From NCBI GenBank assembly GCA_003220595.1, contig QHSZ01000017.1, positions 1 through 35,587 on the forward strand: a DNA stretch of 35,587 nucleotides. The letters are read 5' to 3'. The position numbers and the translations under genes are program-made. This document shows, in pieces, positions 3,232 through 13,888 of the stretch. The notes under the pieces are model-generated. The model made no database searches. It saw nothing but the letters and a program-made list of their open reading frames with translations, and was not told the origin of the DNA. Numbering within the stretch: position 1 is the stretch's first letter; each line of letters starts with the position of its first letter. The DNA is from Candidatus Rokuibacteriota bacterium (GTDB lineage Bacteria; Methylomirabilota; Methylomirabilia; Rokubacteriales; CSP1-6).

Positions 3232-3935
3232 CGCAGCTCACGTTCCGGGACCGTCGCGAGTTCAAGGCGTGGAACGACGCAATGGTCGAGAAGTACGACG
3301 TCGAGCAGTTCCACAGTCACCCGAGCCCCCTCGTCCGCTATGTCGAGCGCAAGCGCATCCGCCGCATCTTCGCCCTGCTGGCGCCGGAGCCGGCCGACCG
3401 GGTGCTCGAAGTCGGCTGCGGTGCGGGCCATCTGCTCGCCGCGCTCCCGGCGGGCCGCGGCTTCGGACTCGACCTCGCGGAGTCGCTCCTCGCGAAGGCG
3501 GCGCGCCGCCTCGGCGGTCGCGACGTCCTGGTCCAGGGCGACGCCGAGCAGCTCCCGTTCCGCGCGTCCGCGTGGGACCGGGTCTATTGCTCCGAGGTCC
3601 TCGAGCACGTCCCCTCGCCCGCGCGCGCCCTCGCCGAGATGCGGCGTATCGTCGGGCCGCGCGGCGTCGTGGTGGTGTCGGTCCCGAACGAGCGCCTGAT
3701 CAACGCCCTCAAGGCGGCGCTCCGACGGAGCGGCCTCTATCGCCTCCTCATGCGGGCCCGGACGGGCGACTACACCATGCCCGAGCGGATGGACGACGAG
3801 TGGCACCTGCACAGCTTCGACCTCGCGAGCTTCCGGGCGCTGATCCCGCCAGGCTTCAGGGTGACCCGCGTCGAGGGCGTCCCGTTTCGCTGGCTCCCGA
3901 TCCGCTACGTCCTGCGCTGCGAGGCGGCGGACTGA
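3228..3935 (+). CDS. Class I SAM-dependent methyltransferase
   Basis: A 235-residue protein with the Rossmann methyltransferase core: motif I V-L-E-V-G-C-G-A-G at about 59-67, an acidic loop G-L-D-L-A-E, the D-A-E-Q-L-P-F motif and a Y-C-S-E-V-L-E-H-V motif IV region. It matches the Methyltransf_11 pattern, often found in surface-polysaccharide and quinone clusters. I chose the TTG at 3228 because it overlaps the previous stop (TTGA) and the following residues form a plausible N-terminal helix; an ATG at 3282 is an alternative. Only 2 nt separate it from the next gene, so it is almost certainly co-expressed with the glycosyltransferases and may methylate a sugar or lipid in the same pathway. 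The substrate cannot be told. Confidence 0.8.
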   Translation: MTQLTFRDRREFKAWNDAMVEKYDVEQFHSHPSPLVRYVERKRIRRIFALLAPEPADRVLEVGCGAGHLLAALPAGRGFGLDLAESLLAKAARRLGGRDVLVQGDAEQLPFRASAWDRVYCSEVLEHVPSPARALAEMRRIVGPRGVVVVSVPNERLINALKAALRRSGLYRLLMRARTGDYTMPERMDDEWHLHSFDLASFRALIPPGFRVTRVEGVPFRWLPIRYVLRCEAAD

Positions 3936-3937
3936 GC

Positions 3938-4900
3938 ATGGGCGGCCTCGAGGGGCTCTCCGTCGTCCTGCCGGTCCTCAACGAGCGGGACAACCTCGAA
4001 CCGCTGCACGCCCGCCTGACGGAGGCGCTGGAGCCTCTGGGGCGCCCGTACGAGGTCGTCTACGTGGACGACGGGAGCACCGACGGCTCGTGGGACGTGC
4101 TGAAGCGCCTCGCCGCGAAGGACGCCCACGCGCGCCTGGTGAGGCTCCGCCGGAACTTCGGCCAGACGCCGGCGCTCACCGCCGGTTTCGTCCACTCGCG
4201 GCACCCGATCGTGGTGACGCTCGACGCGGACCTCCAGAACGATCCCCGCGACATCCCGCGGCTCGTCGCCGCGCTCGGCGACAGCTACGACGTGGTGTCG
4301 GGCTGGCGGCGGCACCGGAGCGACCCGTGGCTGACGCGTCTCCTGCCCTCGCACGTCGCGAACTATCTGATCCGCAAGCTCAGCGGCGTGCCCCTGCACG
4401 ACTTCGGCTGCACGCTCAAGGCGTACCGGCGCGAGGTCATCCAGGACGTGAGCCTCTACGGTGAGATGCACCGCTTCCTGCCCGTCCTGGCGGCGTGGGT
4501 CGGCGGCCGCGTCTCCGAGCTCGAGGTCACGCACCACCCGCGCACGCGGGGCACATCCAAATACGGGCTCACCCGGACCTACAAGGTCCTCGTGGATCTC
4601 ATCACGCTCAAGTTCATCAGCGGGTTCTCGACGCGGCCCAACTACGTCTTCGGCGGGTTCGGCCTGGCGAACCTGGCGCTCGGGTTCCTGGCGTTCGACG
4701 TCGTGGCCTACCGGGTCCTGGTGCTCCGGCACTACGAGGCGACGCCGCTCGTCTTCGTCATGATGTTGCTCCTGATCACCGGCACGCTCTCCCTCTTCAT
4801 CGGCTTCCTCGCCGAGATCGTGATCCGCGGGTTCTACGATACGCAGCGGAAGCCGACCTATTACGTGCGCGAGACGGCGGGCCCGGACGAGGAGCCGTAG
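3938..4900 (+). CDS. Family 2 glycosyltransferase, DPM1/ArnC/CsbB-like polyprenyl-phosphate type
   Basis: A 320-residue GT2 enzyme. The GT-A fold starts at once (L-S-V-V-L-P-V-L-N-E, residues 7-16), with V-D-D-G-S-T-D-G near 43-50 for nucleotide-sugar binding and D-A-D-L-Q-N-D-P at 96-103 for the metal. D-F-G-C-T-L-K-A-Y-R and R-G-T-S-K-Y-G are typical of dolichol/undecaprenyl-phosphate sugar transferases (DPM1, ArnC, GtrB, CsbB). Two hydrophobic segments at about 235-260 and 270-300 anchor the C-terminus, as in GtrB and CsbB. The likely reaction is NDP-sugar + undecaprenyl phosphate giving Und-P-sugar at the inner face of the membrane. GT-C transferases nearby, including the YfhO protein at 6803-9709, would be natural users of the product. 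Confidence 0.85.
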   Translation: MGGLEGLSVVLPVLNERDNLEPLHARLTEALEPLGRPYEVVYVDDGSTDGSWDVLKRLAAKDAHARLVRLRRNFGQTPALTAGFVHSRHPIVVTLDADLQNDPRDIPRLVAALGDSYDVVSGWRRHRSDPWLTRLLPSHVANYLIRKLSGVPLHDFGCTLKAYRREVIQDVSLYGEMHRFLPVLAAWVGGRVSELEVTHHPRTRGTSKYGLTRTYKVLVDLITLKFISGFSTRPNYVFGGFGLANLALGFLAFDVVAYRVLVLRHYEATPLVFVMMLLLITGTLSLFIGFLAEIVIRGFYDTQRKPTYYVRETAGPDEEP

Positions 4901-6795: not shown

Positions 6796-6810
6796 GCGGG
6801 CTTCAGCCGC
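6796..6810. terminator. Small hairpin between convergent asnB and YfhO genes (possible terminator)
   Basis: The asnB stop (6793-6795) and the YfhO stop (6803-6805 on the minus strand) are only 7 bp apart. GCGGGC at 6796-6801 and GCCGC at 6806-6810 can pair around a TTCA loop with one bulged G. No T-run follows on either strand, so it is at best a weak bidirectional terminator. Confidence 0.25.
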
Positions 6811-9709
6811 CCGGAGCGTCCGACGCCGGCCGCGCGGGGATCAGCCACGTCAGGACGAGCGCGGCGAGCGTGAGGAGGCCGAGCGCCCCCAGCGCCGTTG
6901 CCGTCCTCGAATCGCCGTCGCCCCGAGGGTCGACTCGCACCGTCGCGAGGAGCGGCGGGTAGACGTAGTGCTTGCGCGTCGGCTGCTCGGCCGAGGCGCG
7001 GATGAACTGCACGCGAAAGAGGTACCAGCCTCCGGGTCCCACACCCTGCAGGGTGACGAGCAGGCCGCCGAGGGGCCGGCCGGGCACGGCGCGGACGTAC
7101 GCGGTCGGCGTTCCCTGGAGGGCCCCCGTGGCAGAGACGAACACCCAGTATGGCGCGCCGTCGCGGGCGACCGAGACGTACACGTCGACACCGTCCCGCC
7201 CGTCGAGCGCCGCGCTCGCGGCGTCCGGATGGAGGCGGAGCGTGAGGTTCCCGCCCTCGGTCAGTTCGGGCGGCGTCACCTCGAGGGTCGCGGGCGCCGC
7301 GGGAAGCTTGGCGTCGGCGGCTCCCGGCCACACGGCGAGGGCGAGAGCGAGCGCCGCGCCCGGGGTGGCCCGGCGCCCCGGCGCCCAGAGAAGACCCGCG
7401 ACGACGAGCGCGGTGAGCGCGCTGACGAGCAGGCCCACGCGGAACGACGCCGGCGCGTAGCTGAACTCGACCCGGTGGCGCCCGGGCGGCAGCCAGACGG
7501 CGCGCAGGGCATGGTCGGCGCGCCACAGCGTCTGCTCGGCGCCGTCGACCCGCACCTGCCAGCCCGGGAACCACGCGTCGGCCAGGACGAGGTAGGCGGC
7601 GACCGCGGTCGTGGCGTCGAGCACCACGTGGTCCGGAGCGTAGCGCCTGATCTCCACGCTGCCGGCCTCGGCGGGCCCGCCCGCCGGCGGCACGCCGTCG
7701 CACCCCGCGATGACGACCTCCTGCTTCACGTCGAGCGCGCCCTGCTGGAGAAGACGCAGCGTCGCGGCGTCGTCGAGGCACGTCCGGGTCCGCGACACCA
7801 GGAACGCGCGCGGCAACGCGTGGTCGTTCCGATAGACGACGGCGTCGGGCCCCTGGTATTCGAGGACCAGGTGAGGGGCAGGGCTCGGCGAGCCGGGCGT
7901 CCGCATCACATAGCGGATCCCGAGCAGGTCGAACACGGGCGACGCGACCCCCGCCGTCGGGCGGAACGCGCCGCTGGCCGCGGAGTCGATCGACCCGACG
8001 GGGTCGGTCAGTTGCTCGATGCGAAGGGGCGTCATGCCGTCGTAGCCGCCGACCTCGTCGAGCCTGAAGATGGTCCCGAGGTTCGCCGCGCCGAGCCCGG
8101 TGCTGAAGAGCACGCGCGCGTGGTCGCGCGCCGCCCGCTCGCGGAGGTGCCTCACGGCCGGTGGCGGGCCCAGGTCGAGGAACCGGGTGTCGATGACGGG
8201 GTTGTAGGTGGCGGCGACGGGCAGGAGGCTGGCGAGCTCGACCGCCGCGAGCGCGGCCCAGAGGCCGGGCGCCGCGCCGGCCGCCCGGAGCAGGCGCAGC
8301 AGTAGGACGGCGGCGAGCGTCAGCAGGAGGAGAAACCAGGCGTACTGCGCCCAGAGCGGCACCCGCATCGCCGCGCGCTCGGCGAGCGTCCAGTGGCTCC
8401 ACGTGAACCCGAGCGCGCCCAGGCTCAGAAGCGCGAAGGTGGCGCGCACGGCGACCGGCAGCAACCGCCTCGCCGCCGGCAGGGCCGTGCGGACCGCGTC
8501 GAGGCCGAGCGCGCCGAGGACCGGGAGCGCGAACACGAACAGGTCGGCCGTGCGCACGATGAGCGTCGTGGAGAAGAGCGGCAGCCGCGCGAGCGCATCG
8601 CCGACGAGCGGCGCGCCGTAGACCAGGGCGGCCGAGCCCACCGCGAGGCCCGCGAAGTACTTCGTCCCCGGCCGCGACCACGCGGCCACGAGCGCCAGCG
8701 GCAGCGCGAGCCAGGGCACGACGCCGACCGAGAGCGCGATTTCGTTGAAATTCGCCGGGCCCCAGAAGTCGCGCCCGGGATCGCTGCCGAAGAAGTGCGG
8801 CATGAGCACCACGATCGCGGCGCGGAGGGGCAGCGGGAAGTGCGGCATCCACTCTTCCCGGTAGGCGAGCACGACGCTCGCGCGCGCGTACTCGACGAAC
8901 GGCAGGAGCTGGACGGCCGAGAGCAGGAGACCGAGCGCCACGCCCGCGGCCCAGCACCCGAGGAAGGGCCCAGGCCGCGCGGCGGAGCGGCAGCGGTAGA
9001 GGGCCCAGATCGCCAGGACCGGAAACCCGTAGACGACCCGCTGCGGGTAGCCGGCGAGCACGGCGAGCGCCACGGTGAGCGCCAGGGCGCCGACGGGTCG
9101 CACGCCGGGGCGCGCGCGCAGGAGCTCGGTCACCCCGAACAGGAGAGGCAGGAGCACCACGGGGCTCGTGTTCGACCACTGGAGCCACGTCACGAGCAGC
9201 GCGTTGAACTCGAACGCGACCGCACCGACCAGCGCCGCGAGGCTCGCGACGTCGAGACGACGGAGGAACCAGTACATCCCGACGCCCGCCACCGAGAGCT
9301 TGAGCACCGACATGAGGGTCAGGGCGAGCGCCGGCGGCAGGACGTAGGCCAGCGCGGTCAGCGGAAAGAGGAGCGCGGTCTGTGGGTTGGCGAAGAACGG
9401 GGCCCCGCCGAAGACGTGGGGGTTCCACAGCGGGAAGCGTCCCGCGCGGATCTCCTCGGCGCCGTAGAGGATGGAGGGGTGAAAGAGGAAGGTGATGTCG
9501 GAGAGCCGCGGGTTCACGGGCGCGACGCCCGGAGCGAGCGCCGCCCAGGGGGCGAAGGTGACGACGTTGTCGGCCGGCGAGAGGACCTTGCCGGGCAGGA
9601 GCGCGCGCCCGAGCACGAGGAACGGCAGGATCAGGAGCAGGAGGGCGGCGACGAGGTCGGGGTGCTTTCGGCCGAGCGCGGCGAGGCGCGACATCGTCTC
9701 CGCGCGCAT
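6803..9709 (-). CDS. YfhO-family membrane protein with an extra C-terminal extracytoplasmic domain
   Basis: A 968-residue multi-spanning protein. The first 780 or so residues match the YfhO family (Pfam 'Bacterial membrane protein YfhO'): an early D-N-V-V-T-F-A-P-W segment, W-N-P-H-V-F-G-G-A-P-F-F-A-N-P-Q, many membrane helices, then a soluble region with D-E-V-G-G-Y-D-G. In Bacillus, YfhO moves GlcNAc from undecaprenyl phosphate to lipoteichoic acid, fed by CsbB. Unusually, residues ~785-800 form a hydrophobic stretch ending A-D-A before Lys801, like a signal peptide with its cleavage site, followed by a beta-rich domain (V-D-V-Y-V-S-V, G-G-W-Y-L-F-R-V-Q-F-I-R) and a final membrane helix. 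ATG at 9709 or 9694 could be the start; neither has a strong Shine-Dalgarno. It lies 29 bp after the radical SAM gene. Confidence 0.8.
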   Translation of the reverse strand: MRAETMSRLAALGRKHPDLVAALLLLILPFLVLGRALLPGKVLSPADNVVTFAPWAALAPGVAPVNPRLSDITFLFHPSILYGAEEIRAGRFPLWNPHVFGGAPFFANPQTALLFPLTALAYVLPPALALTLMSVLKLSVAGVGMYWFLRRLDVASLAALVGAVAFEFNALLVTWLQWSNTSPVVLLPLLFGVTELLRARPGVRPVGALALTVALAVLAGYPQRVVYGFPVLAIWALYRCRSAARPGPFLGCWAAGVALGLLLSAVQLLPFVEYARASVVLAYREEWMPHFPLPLRAAIVVLMPHFFGSDPGRDFWGPANFNEIALSVGVVPWLALPLALVAAWSRPGTKYFAGLAVGSAALVYGAPLVGDALARLPLFSTTLIVRTADLFVFALPVLGALGLDAVRTALPAARRLLPVAVRATFALLSLGALGFTWSHWTLAERAAMRVPLWAQYAWFLLLLTLAAVLLLRLLRAAGAAPGLWAALAAVELASLLPVAATYNPVIDTRFLDLGPPPAVRHLRERAARDHARVLFSTGLGAANLGTIFRLDEVGGYDGMTPLRIEQLTDPVGSIDSAASGAFRPTAGVASPVFDLLGIRYVMRTPGSPSPAPHLVLEYQGPDAVVYRNDHALPRAFLVSRTRTCLDDAATLRLLQQGALDVKQEVVIAGCDGVPPAGGPAEAGSVEIRRYAPDHVVLDATTAVAAYLVLADAWFPGWQVRVDGAEQTLWRADHALRAVWLPPGRHRVEFSYAPASFRVGLLVSALTALVVAGLLWAPGRRATPGAALALALAVWPGAADAKLPAAPATLEVTPPELTEGGNLTLRLHPDAASAALDGRDGVDVYVSVARDGAPYWVFVSATGALQGTPTAYVRAVPGRPLGGLLVTLQGVGPGGWYLFRVQFIRASAEQPTRKHYVYPPLLATVRVDPRGDGDSRTATALGALGLLTLAALVLTWLIPARPASDAPGG

Positions 9710-9738: not shown

Positions 9739-11274
9739 CTATCCCGTCGCTCGAACCTTCCGCCCCAGCGCGTCCTTGAGGCGATGCTCGAACACGGTCG
9801 CGGCGGAGTGCCGGGACATGAAGACGTTCCGGAGCGTCCGCCAGATCCGTCGCGGATACAGCATGTAGCCGACCAGGTAGTTGAGCACCATGAAGGAGAT
9901 CCGGTAGAGCGCGAGCTCCCGGGGCCCCATGACGGGGTTGAGCGTCAGGGGGTTGGTGCGCGTGTAGTCGCTGTTCAGCGAGGTGAGCTTGAGAAAGTAA
10001 CGATCGCCGAGCTCGATCGCGCCGGCCGCGGCGAGCTCGCGATAGAGCTCCGAGCCCGGGTACGGCGAAAAGATGTTGATGCTCACCTCGTCCACGCCGC
10101 GGGCGGCGAGCATCAGCCCGTAGCGGATGGTCTGAAAGACCTCCCGGCGAGTCTCGTGTGGGAACCCGATGATGAGATTCGTGCGCACGACGATCCCCTG
10201 CCGCTTGGCCTCGAGGATCGAGGCGGTGATGCGCGGAAGCTGGATCTTCTTCTTGATCTTCCGGAGCGTGTTCGGCGACCCGCTCTCGGGCGCGAACACG
10301 AGGTAGGTGCAGCCCGTGCGTCTGAGCAGGCTGAGCGTCTCGTGGTCGAGCGCCTCGCTGCGCGTCCCGGACGGGAGCGACCACTTCAGGTCGATCCCGC
10401 GGGCCAGCAGCTTGGTCGTGAACTCGACCGTCCAGCTCTTCTTCGTGATCGCCGTGAGGTCGTAGAGCTGCAGGCTCGTGATCGCGTACCGCGTCCGGTA
10501 GTGCTCGATCTCGGCGATCACGTCGTCGGCGTCGCGCAACCGGTAGAGCGTGGTCCACATCTGCGGGCTCGAGCAGAACGTGCACTGGTACGGACAGCCC
10601 CGCGAGACGAGCAGCGGCATGTCGCGCTCGGAGGCGACCCCGTACGACTTGCCCGCCGCCCAGAACTTCTCGAGGTATCCCTCCGGCCAGTCGGGCCACG
10701 GGATTTGATCCAGCTCCCGGATCCGCGGCATGTGCTCGTTCGCCCGGAACTGGCCGTCGTCGTCCAGGTACGCGACGCCGTTCACGGCGCTCAGATCGCG
10801 CCCCTCGCCCAGATGCTCCAGCAGCTCGTAGAAGGTGTGCTCTCCCTCGCCCCTCACGCACACGTCGAGCGCCGGACAGTCACGCAGGCTGTACTCGGGC
10901 AGTGCGGTGATGTGCTCGCCTCCGGCGACCAGGACCGCCTTCGGGAACTCCCGGCGCATCGCGGTCATCAGCTCCCGCTGCACCGGCCACTCGCCCGAGA
11001 ACATCGCGGAGAAGCCGATGACGTCGGGGTCGCGCGGCATCCGCTCCAGCACTTCCTCGACCGTCAGCCCCTGACAGACGTAGCCGGGATGCGCGGCGAG
11101 CGGCCAGTAGCGGTTGAGGCCTTCGCCGATGGCGTCGACGATCGTCGGCGCGTACCCGTGCGCCCGCGCGTAGCCGGACACGTAGGCAAGGCCGAGGCAG
11201 GGCGTGGCCTCGTTGTTGAGCGAGCGCGTCGTCGAGACGATCGGACCACGGACGAGCGCGACGCGGAGCTTCAT
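9739..11274 (-). CDS. B12-binding-domain radical SAM protein
   Basis: A 511-residue protein. The N-terminal ~180 residues have the cobalamin-binding Rossmann layout (R-V-A-L-V-R-G, P-C-L-G-L-A-Y-V-S-G-Y-A, V-I-G-F-S-A-M, V-A-G-G-E-H-I-T-A-L-P-E, R-G-E-G-E-H-T-F), although the D-x-H-x-x-G ligand motif is not evident, as in many relatives. The radical SAM core begins at S-R-G-C-P-Y-Q-C-T-F-C, with the cluster ligands at Cys227, Cys231 and Cys234. T-N-L-I-I-G-F-P-H-E-T and F-S-P-Y-P-G-S-E-L-Y are typical of the BchE/HpnR-like class. Members perform methyl transfers, cyclisations or lipid modifications. ATG at 11274 is chosen because the B12-domain strand begins directly after it. It is first in a minus-strand operon with the YfhO gene, suggesting a lipid or glycan-lipid substrate, which is inference. 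Confidence 0.85.
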   Translation of the reverse strand: MKLRVALVRGPIVSTTRSLNNEATPCLGLAYVSGYARAHGYAPTIVDAIGEGLNRYWPLAAHPGYVCQGLTVEEVLERMPRDPDVIGFSAMFSGEWPVQRELMTAMRREFPKAVLVAGGEHITALPEYSLRDCPALDVCVRGEGEHTFYELLEHLGEGRDLSAVNGVAYLDDDGQFRANEHMPRIRELDQIPWPDWPEGYLEKFWAAGKSYGVASERDMPLLVSRGCPYQCTFCSSPQMWTTLYRLRDADDVIAEIEHYRTRYAITSLQLYDLTAITKKSWTVEFTTKLLARGIDLKWSLPSGTRSEALDHETLSLLRRTGCTYLVFAPESGSPNTLRKIKKKIQLPRITASILEAKRQGIVVRTNLIIGFPHETRREVFQTIRYGLMLAARGVDEVSINIFSPYPGSELYRELAAAGAIELGDRYFLKLTSLNSDYTRTNPLTLNPVMGPRELALYRISFMVLNYLVGYMLYPRRIWRTLRNVFMSRHSAATVFEHRLKDALGRKVRATG

Positions 11275-11280
11275 GCGCGC

Positions 11281-11310
11281 ATTATGCGAGAGGCGCGAAC
11301 AGAATCGCAA
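11281..11310 (-). promoter_or_regulatory. Promoter candidate for the radical SAM/YfhO operon, leaderless layout
   Basis: On the minus strand TTGCGA (11310-11305) is followed after 18 bp by CATAAT (11286-11281), and then after only 6 bp by the ATG at 11274. That spacing puts the transcription start at or next to the initiation codon, and no Shine-Dalgarno is seen, so a leaderless mRNA is likely if the promoter is real. The remainder of the 258-bp gap (11275-11532) holds an AT-rich patch at about 11405-11446 and a small hairpin; no gene is recognisable. Confidence 0.45.
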
Positions 11311-11494
11311 TGTTGGCTCCGGGGCGCACGAGCGTGATCGCATGGGCTCGGGACATGGCCATGAATGGGAGCAATTCAGGGGCCAAGCTTGCCCGCGGAG
11401 CCCTACGAGTAACTATCAGTTATTACAGCAATTTTATCGTGTTCCCTGGGGGCGTTCGGTGGAAATCGAGCCCATGGCCAAACTGTAGCGAGGG

Positions 11495-12601: not shown

Positions 12602-13888
12602 TCAGGCCAGGTGTGCCAGGCCGATCAACGCAAAGGACAGGAGCGAGAACGTGCCGAGCAGTGCGGTCACCAGAAGGGCCGGCGTGCGAAGCGCGCGCTC
12701 CTCGCACTGCCGCCAGTAGAAGAAGAGCATCGGCAAGATCGGAAACAGGTACCGGCCTTGACCCTGAAAATTGACGGTCCAGGACCGGTAGAGTGACTGG
12801 GCGACCACGAGCGCGGCGCAGACGAGGACACCGAGGAACAGCAGTCGCGCACTCGGACCGCCGCGCAGCGCGACCGGCAGGACGAGGATGGCGAGCAGCG
12901 CGGCGTCGAGCGCGCCGAAGACGTAGTAGACCCAGGGGACGGCCACGATGCTCATCCAGCCGTAGAGGCCCGAGAAGCTCCGGAAGGACAGACCCGGCCA
13001 GTCCATCGACATGATGAGGGCAGACAGCGGCACGCCCTTGGCCCGGAGCATGATGAAGGCAAAGGACTGCGGGCTCGCAAACGCCGACGGCTTCAGCTCC
13101 GGCTCCGCCACCTGGTCCGCGTACGCCGCCACCTTCGCACCAGTCTGGAAGTCGTTGACCCAGGCGTGGTAGCACGACCATGGGACGGCGATCGCGGCGG
13201 CGACCGCGAGCGGGAGCGTGAGCCGCTTCCAGTGCGCGATCTCCCCTCGCAGCCACCCCAGGATCCCGCCCAGAAACACGACACCCACCAGGTAGTTCAG
13301 CTTGGAGGTCAGAAGGAATCCGAGCAGAGCGCCGACCGCGAACACGCCCGCCGTGGGCCCAGCCTCCCGGCTCCTCCAGAAGGCGCGGATACCGGACTCT
13401 GGCCAACCCAGCTCGAATATGAGGCCCGTCAAGAGCAGGAATGGGAGCGCATCACCGTTGATGTAGGAGAAGACGTACCAGAGCTGCGGCGTTAGCAGGA
13501 GGAATCCCAGCGCGGGGCTGAACGTCCGCGCCCGGGCAAGGCACCACGCGACGAGGACCACGTAGAGGAAAACCTGGAACGAGCGCATCGCCACCGCCGG
13601 CGTCGCGCCGAAGAGCCCCCCGGCGGCCGCCGCCTTGCCGAGGAGGCAGTACACGACGTCTCCCATGTCCAGGTAGGAAAAGCCCCATCGGCTGTAAGAT
13701 GCGGCCGTCTCCGGCGCCCCGACGGGCGGAGGCAGCCAATGGGTCTGGAAGTATCGTCCGGCCAGCAGGTGGAGCATCTCGTCGGGATGAGCGTCGATCG
13801 GACTGCGCGCGGCCATGAGGAACACCAGGACCACCGAGGCGAGGAGCTGGACCATCAGCACGATGCCCAGCACCCGCTGGACCTTCAC
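12602..13888 (-). CDS. DUF2142-like multi-spanning membrane protein (GT-C glycosyltransferase-like)
   Basis: A 428-residue integral membrane protein with around ten helices. After the first helix comes S-P-I-D-A-H-P-D-E-M-L-H, an acidic/His cluster on the outer side as in DUF2142 and related GT-C proteins, and near the end Q-G-Q-G-R-Y-L-F-P, a DUF2142 hallmark. Such proteins are found in polysaccharide and exopolymer loci and probably act on lipid-linked sugars; no activity is proven here. The GTG at 13888 overlaps the TGA of the response regulator upstream by 4 nt (GTGA), so its translation is probably coupled to that gene. The downstream end shows no T-rich terminator. Confidence 0.7.
   Translation of the reverse strand: MKVQRVLGIVLMVQLLASVVLVFLMAARSPIDAHPDEMLHLLAGRYFQTHWLPPPVGAPETAASYSRWGFSYLDMGDVVYCLLGKAAAAGGLFGATPAVAMRSFQVFLYVVLVAWCLARARTFSPALGFLLLTPQLWYVFSYINGDALPFLLLTGLIFELGWPESGIRAFWRSREAGPTAGVFAVGALLGFLLTSKLNYLVGVVFLGGILGWLRGEIAHWKRLTLPLAVAAAIAVPWSCYHAWVNDFQTGAKVAAYADQVAEPELKPSAFASPQSFAFIMLRAKGVPLSALIMSMDWPGLSFRSFSGLYGWMSIVAVPWVYYVFGALDAALLAILVLPVALRGGPSARLLFLGVLVCAALVVAQSLYRSWTVNFQGQGRYLFPILPMLFFYWRQCEERALRTPALLVTALLGTFSLLSFALIGLAHLA

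Follow-up and report, generated by a model that had tools for sequence, protein, structure and literature searches.

GT-C glycosyltransferases and fused membrane precursors

The presumed task of YfhO proteins is the transfer of a sugar from a polyprenyl-phosphate carrier to an acceptor on the outer side of the membrane; in Bacillus subtilis, YfhO works with the GT2 enzyme CsbB, whose C-terminus has two helices (PMC5836110). In the GT-C enzymes EmbC and AftD, extra extracytoplasmic carbohydrate-binding modules are reported to bind the acceptor (PMC11127046). Beyond the Gram-positive bacteria, little is known about the acceptors and the mechanism of YfhO-type glycosyltransferases.

The best bacterial precedent for a polytopic membrane protein that is made in one polypeptide with an exported, membrane-anchored partner is fbcH of Bradyrhizobium japonicum, whose cytochrome b/c1 precursor is cut at an internal signal peptide; this cleavage is experimentally known. 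The fbcH proteins form part of a respiratory complex and are unrelated to the protein described here, for which cleavage is only predicted. Thony-Meyer et al. (Cell 57:683, 1989) described the fbcH gene cluster. A search of the open literature for fbcH and bacterial internal signal peptides gave nothing directly useful.

A YfhO gene with an additional C-terminal domain

The window, the whole stretch of 35,587 nucleotides that was analysed, comes from the Rokubacteria (Methylomirabilota), a family found in soil and groundwater. A minus-strand frame runs from an ATG at 9709 to a stop codon at 6803, and its translation of 968 residues can be divided as follows:

6803..9709, minus strand: fused gene for a YfhO-type GT-C glycosyltransferase and an exported Ig-like domain (968 aa; translation)
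8204..9709, minus strand: multi-helix GT-C membrane region, residues 1-502 (helices of the model, Foldseek)
7451..8203, minus strand: YfhO extracytoplasmic C-terminal loop domain, residues 503-753 (model, ends of the profile matches)
7385..7450, minus strand: last YfhO membrane helix, running from outside to inside, residues 754-775 (model)
7361..7384, minus strand: short basic cytoplasmic loop APGRRATP, residues 776-783 (alignment of the joint)
7310..7360, minus strand: signal-peptide-like h- and c-region GAALALALAVWPGAADA, residues 784-800 (alignment with six separate genes)
6929..7309, minus strand: predicted Ig/FnIII-like beta-sandwich domain without known sequence family, residues 801-927 (AlphaFold2, Foldseek)
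6842..6913, minus strand: C-terminal membrane anchor helix, residues 933-956 (models)

The protein matches the Pfam family YfhO (PF09586) with 62.9 bits (curated cut-off 28.5; E 2.6e-17). With B. subtilis YfhO (PF09586/PgfM) it shares the profile match, many membrane helices, a large loop in front of the last helix and the GT-C fold; the loop, residues 503-753, is placed by the model between helices 481-502 and 754-775. A Foldseek search with the full model, which is of moderate quality (pLDDT 69), returned AftD, OST, PglB, ArnT and AftA at E-values of 1e-8 to 1e-3, with AftD as the best PDB fold match. Two aspartates in the first extracytoplasmic region of the YfhO part, D47 and D71, are invariant in the alignment columns.

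B. subtilis YfhO as described ends at its last helix, whereas the window's protein continues into an exported Ig-like domain and one more membrane helix. The Pfam match stops at residue 763 of 968, where the model is complete (771-835 of 835), the NCBIfam PgfM2 match reaches residue 770, and the ends of the YfhO and PgfM2 profile matches lie at 763-774. Helix 754-775 aligns with the C-terminal end of the unfused YfhO proteins of G015, G011, G047, G058 and G068. Behind it, the joint reads GRRATPGAALALALAVWPGAADA followed by K801LPAAP, and the motifs VDVYV and GGWYLFRVQF are both present in frame. The sequence-only reading of this locus is thus borne out in that the frame runs beyond the usual end of the family, that a hydrophobic stretch ending in A-D-A precedes Lys801, and that beta-rich residues, modelled by AlphaFold2 as a sandwich (approximately residues 801-927), are followed by one C-terminal helix.

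The HMM search and the structure prediction which that reading had proposed were both carried out. Residues 787-968 matched no Pfam or NCBIfam family and no PDB sequence, and the domain, searched alone and as an alignment, gave no usable match in Pfam, NCBIfam or the PDB sequences. AlphaFold2 modelled residues 801-968 from a nine-row alignment with a mean pLDDT of 82.5, and of about 90 over most strands, as a beta sandwich, whose strands lie within fragment positions 7-127, with a C-terminal helix at 134-156. Foldseek matched this model weakly to many Ig/FnIII proteins, with TM-scores of up to 0.6 by target length and of 0.29-0.46 by query among the matches listed, and the matches do not indicate a function; all that the PDB and the viral structures yielded were Ig/FnIII sandwiches of a generic kind. 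A carbohydrate-binding module was considered as well; none of nine domain sequences had a Pfam match, and the domain was not filed as such a module.

Distribution of the domain and its separate-gene relatives

In a search with a profile of the domain, 16 of the 57 genomes in the window's family had it; the other 38 genomes in the phylum had no match. Each of the 17 complete copies immediately follows a YfhO, always from a single clade; eleven copies are fused in frame and six are encoded by separate genes. Within the family, every YfhO that scores at least 829 bits has the domain behind it, and no neighbouring domain match was found for YfhO proteins with scores of up to 282 bits. In a set of 78 YfhO loci that covers many phyla, the domain occurs at the Rokubacteria ones only. 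It is found exclusively beside YfhO, though the surrounding neighbourhoods vary, and a comparison of the neighbouring genes across seven loci revealed no constant partner other than the domain.

The separate genes, found in G015, G011, G047, G058, G068 and G071 (copy b), show how the two parts are arranged outside of the fusions. At these loci, YfhO has a short tail followed by a stop codon, and the domain gene lies in another frame. In five of the six, the start codon of the domain gene overlaps the YfhO stop codon by four nucleotides as ATGA or GTGA; in G015, the domain gene starts with GTG and overlaps YfhO by eight nucleotides. All six domain genes have signal-peptide-like N-termini, which align with the position of the window's joint: MTAPGLGLGLWLGLSLLAALAAEADA before ALPPAPF and VSRLALALVTALALARTAEA before ALPAPPF stand at the same place as GAALALALAVWPGAADA before KLPAAP. 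The C-terminal anchor helix is found in fused and separate copies alike. Genomes in which YfhO and the domain are neighbouring genes had been suggested as a check on the idea that YfhO has taken up an originally independent exported protein, and these six relatives, in which the domain keeps an overlapping gene of its own with a signal-peptide-like start, strongly support it. They also show the feature expected of a precursor with an internal signal peptide, namely a downstream part that is a separate exported protein in relatives (six loci). From the alignment, APGRRATP (residues 776-783) is apparently the former YfhO tail joined to the n-region of the signal peptide. The partner is a previously unnamed exported protein of a YfhO glycosyltransferase.

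Repeated fusion of the two genes

A tree of YfhO was built on residues 1 to approximately 763, so that the fused or separate state was left out. In this tree, the fused genes of G000, G001 and G045b stand beside the separate-gene locus of G015, those of G018, G044 and G045a beside G058, and those of G009, G071a and G072 beside G071b, while G010, G043 and G068 form a mixed group. At least five changes between the fused and the separate state are needed on the tree, of which at least four are forced by well-supported branches, and a single fused clade is rejected by the AU test (p 8.8e-39). A tree of the domain alone shows the same groupings with weaker support, which indicates that the two parts have travelled together. 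We read this pattern as four to five independent fusions in the family. The domain is under purifying selection, with dN/dS values of 0.29-0.41 in the fused ecto-domain (four pairs). At the joint, values of 0.46-1.3 were obtained compared to 0.25-0.41 in the YfhO core and the domain, although the stretches are short and the estimates imprecise; signal peptides are known to evolve fast, to which the faster-changing joint can be compared. That the same two genes have fused repeatedly argues strongly for the unnamed Ig-like protein functioning as a partner of glycosyltransferases of the YfhO type.

Other accounts of the fused gene fare less well. That the C-terminal region is an ordinary, unrecognized part of the YfhO family draws on the clade in which every close YfhO has the domain, either fused or adjacent; it is very improbable, since the Pfam model is complete at residue 763, the tails of 84 YfhO frames with a complete C-terminus, drawn from many phyla, have a median length of 23 residues, this tail occurs in Rokubacteria fusions only, and the long tails outside of Rokubacteria are unrelated to it according to the domain profile. 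The sequence-only reading had set its proposal against homologues with this region as a standard part of YfhO, and such homologues exist inside the one Rokubacteria clade but not otherwise among the 84 complete frames. All sequences are metagenome assemblies, and a broken second copy in G009 lies beside a run of unknown bases, so that an assembly or frameshift error joining two genes has to be considered; this is the least credible of the alternatives, as eleven fused loci come from several assemblies and are conserved within species groups, and purifying selection extends through the joint and the domain. The same fusion in the same-genus genome G001 (79% identity), together with the eleven fused loci, speaks against both chance and assembly error, and the fusion is confirmed as real. 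Finally, the fused form could be ancestral and the separate genes could stem from repeated gene splitting, which by simple counts takes about six splits on the tree compared to four to five fusions. However, each of the six splits would have to create a stop codon, a start codon and a working N-terminal signal, five of them would have to produce the same four-nucleotide overlap in the same -1 frame, and YfhO proteins across other phyla are without the domain. Repeated splitting is therefore possible but less likely than repeated fusion, and we consider an ancestral fusion improbable.

Cleavage or tethering at the joint

Eight fused proteins (G000, G001, G018, G044, G045a, G045b, G043 and G010), those of the window's lineage among them, carry A-x-A or T-x-A behind the hydrophobic core, followed in G010 by a longer linker. 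The genome also has a gene for signal peptidase I (PF10502). Among the in-frame GTG, ATG and TTG codons at the joint, none is preceded by a Shine-Dalgarno-like site. A crude signal-peptide rule flags the window's joint and misses the N-termini of two of the separate genes; given these misses and its background at other sites, which ranges from about 0.07 (other YfhO proteins) to 0.2 (the same proteins) per 64 aa, the rule does not decide on cleavage. On the basis of its sequence, the window's protein is fairly probably cleaved by signal peptidase, with a predicted cut after A800.

Alternatively, the stretch of residues 784-800 might stay in the membrane as an extra helix, leaving the Ig-like domain covalently tethered to YfhO. 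Such an arrangement would resemble that of EmbC, AftD and ORF12, GT-C enzymes with covalent extra extracytoplasmic domains, and it finds a counterpart in the fused proteins of one genus (G009, G071a and G072), in which a longer hydrophobic helix is followed by SPGP or PPGP in place of A-x-A. Proline-rich sequences of this kind are poor substrates of signal peptidase. A tethered form is thus very probably functional in this genus, where the domain probably stays attached, and retention of the fusion without A-x-A implies that cleavage is not required everywhere. For the window's protein, however, tethering is rather unlikely: unlike the longer helices of the G009/G071/G072 genus, its hydrophobic stretch is short and broken by W-P, and the sum of hydrophobicity over 19 residues, calculated on a rough scale, is the least favourable for membrane residence (8.3, compared to -1.9 for the most favourable, G009). 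In addition, residues 777-801 are modelled with a confidence below 50 and without a full-length helix, and the alanines at -1 and -3 are kept in G000, G001 and G045b even though the joints of G000 and G001 are only 54% identical.

A proposed role for the exported partner

Taken as a whole, the locus is likely the product of a merger of two translationally coupled genes, one for a YfhO-type GT-C enzyme and one for a dedicated exported partner, giving a precursor that is probably cut after A800. In the proposed ancestor, the start codon of the partner overlapped the YfhO stop codon (ATGA/GTGA), so that a small indel would have sufficed for fusion, and the partner would have consisted of a signal peptide, the Ig/FnIII-like domain and a C-terminal membrane anchor. 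As the C-terminus of the window's YfhO part is predicted to lie in the cytoplasm, the partner's old signal peptide would act as an internal signal, carrying the Ig-like domain to the outside, where signal peptidase I probably cuts after A800. The domain would be left behind as a type I membrane protein in a 1:1 ratio to YfhO and would most likely act next to the enzyme on the outer face of the membrane, holding or presenting the acceptor or stabilizing the enzyme. By analogy with known systems, the chances that the Ig-like domain is a partner near the acceptor site are about even, and acceptor binding by the domain is a guess. Like the window's protein, EmbC, AftD and Citrobacter ORF12/GT136 combine a GT-C core with an extra beta-rich domain at the outer face; no sequence relation to them was found and, unlike theirs, the window's extra domain is a former signal-peptide protein with its own anchor, for which ligand binding is only conjectured. 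The full scenario, in which enzyme and partner are made as one precursor and split at an internal signal peptide, with several origins and a later loss of the cut in one genus, may be right or wrong with equal chance. If true, the partner represents a new subunit family of YfhO-type glycosyltransferases. Close relatives form a natural series, from a pair of genes through a single gene that has a cut site to a single gene that lacks it, and this series allows a direct test of how bacteria process internal signal peptides.

Two further genes of the window lie near the fused gene:

3269..4900, plus strand: frame with a GT2 glycosyltransferase (PF00535 at residues 231-393; true start further in)
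9739..11343, minus strand: B12-binding radical SAM protein, immediately upstream of the fused gene and outside of the conserved pair

By eye, the C-terminus of the GT2 frame contains two CsbB-like membrane helices, and in G010 a GT2 gene is located directly upstream of the fused gene. The GT2 enzyme of the window is a possible donor-lipid synthase partner, and by analogy, with this GT2 gene nearby, the window's YfhO is putatively a transferase of a polyprenyl-phosphate-linked sugar. The B12-binding radical SAM protein did not turn up among the neighbouring genes that were examined at the other loci.

Further YfhO variants

Two YfhO proteins of Anaerolineae/Caldilineales (L103:4977-9362 and L118:1954-6342) are extended at the C-terminus by about 520 residues that by eye read like a Wzx/PST-type flippase, which would be a different type of YfhO fusion. 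In G009 (C188:2888-3121 and 12997-13161), a single contig holds, about 10 kb apart, remnants of a YfhO like that of the window (77% identity over residues 14-91) and of its domain, and the same is seen in G071 (C265); the pattern looks like that of a broken or interrupted gene. On contig C7 of G009, a second, degenerate copy of YfhO plus domain (L132, L058:7869-8636) lies 3' of the fused gene and adjoins a run of unknown bases, where the related genome G071 carries an intact separate-gene pair in tandem (L053).
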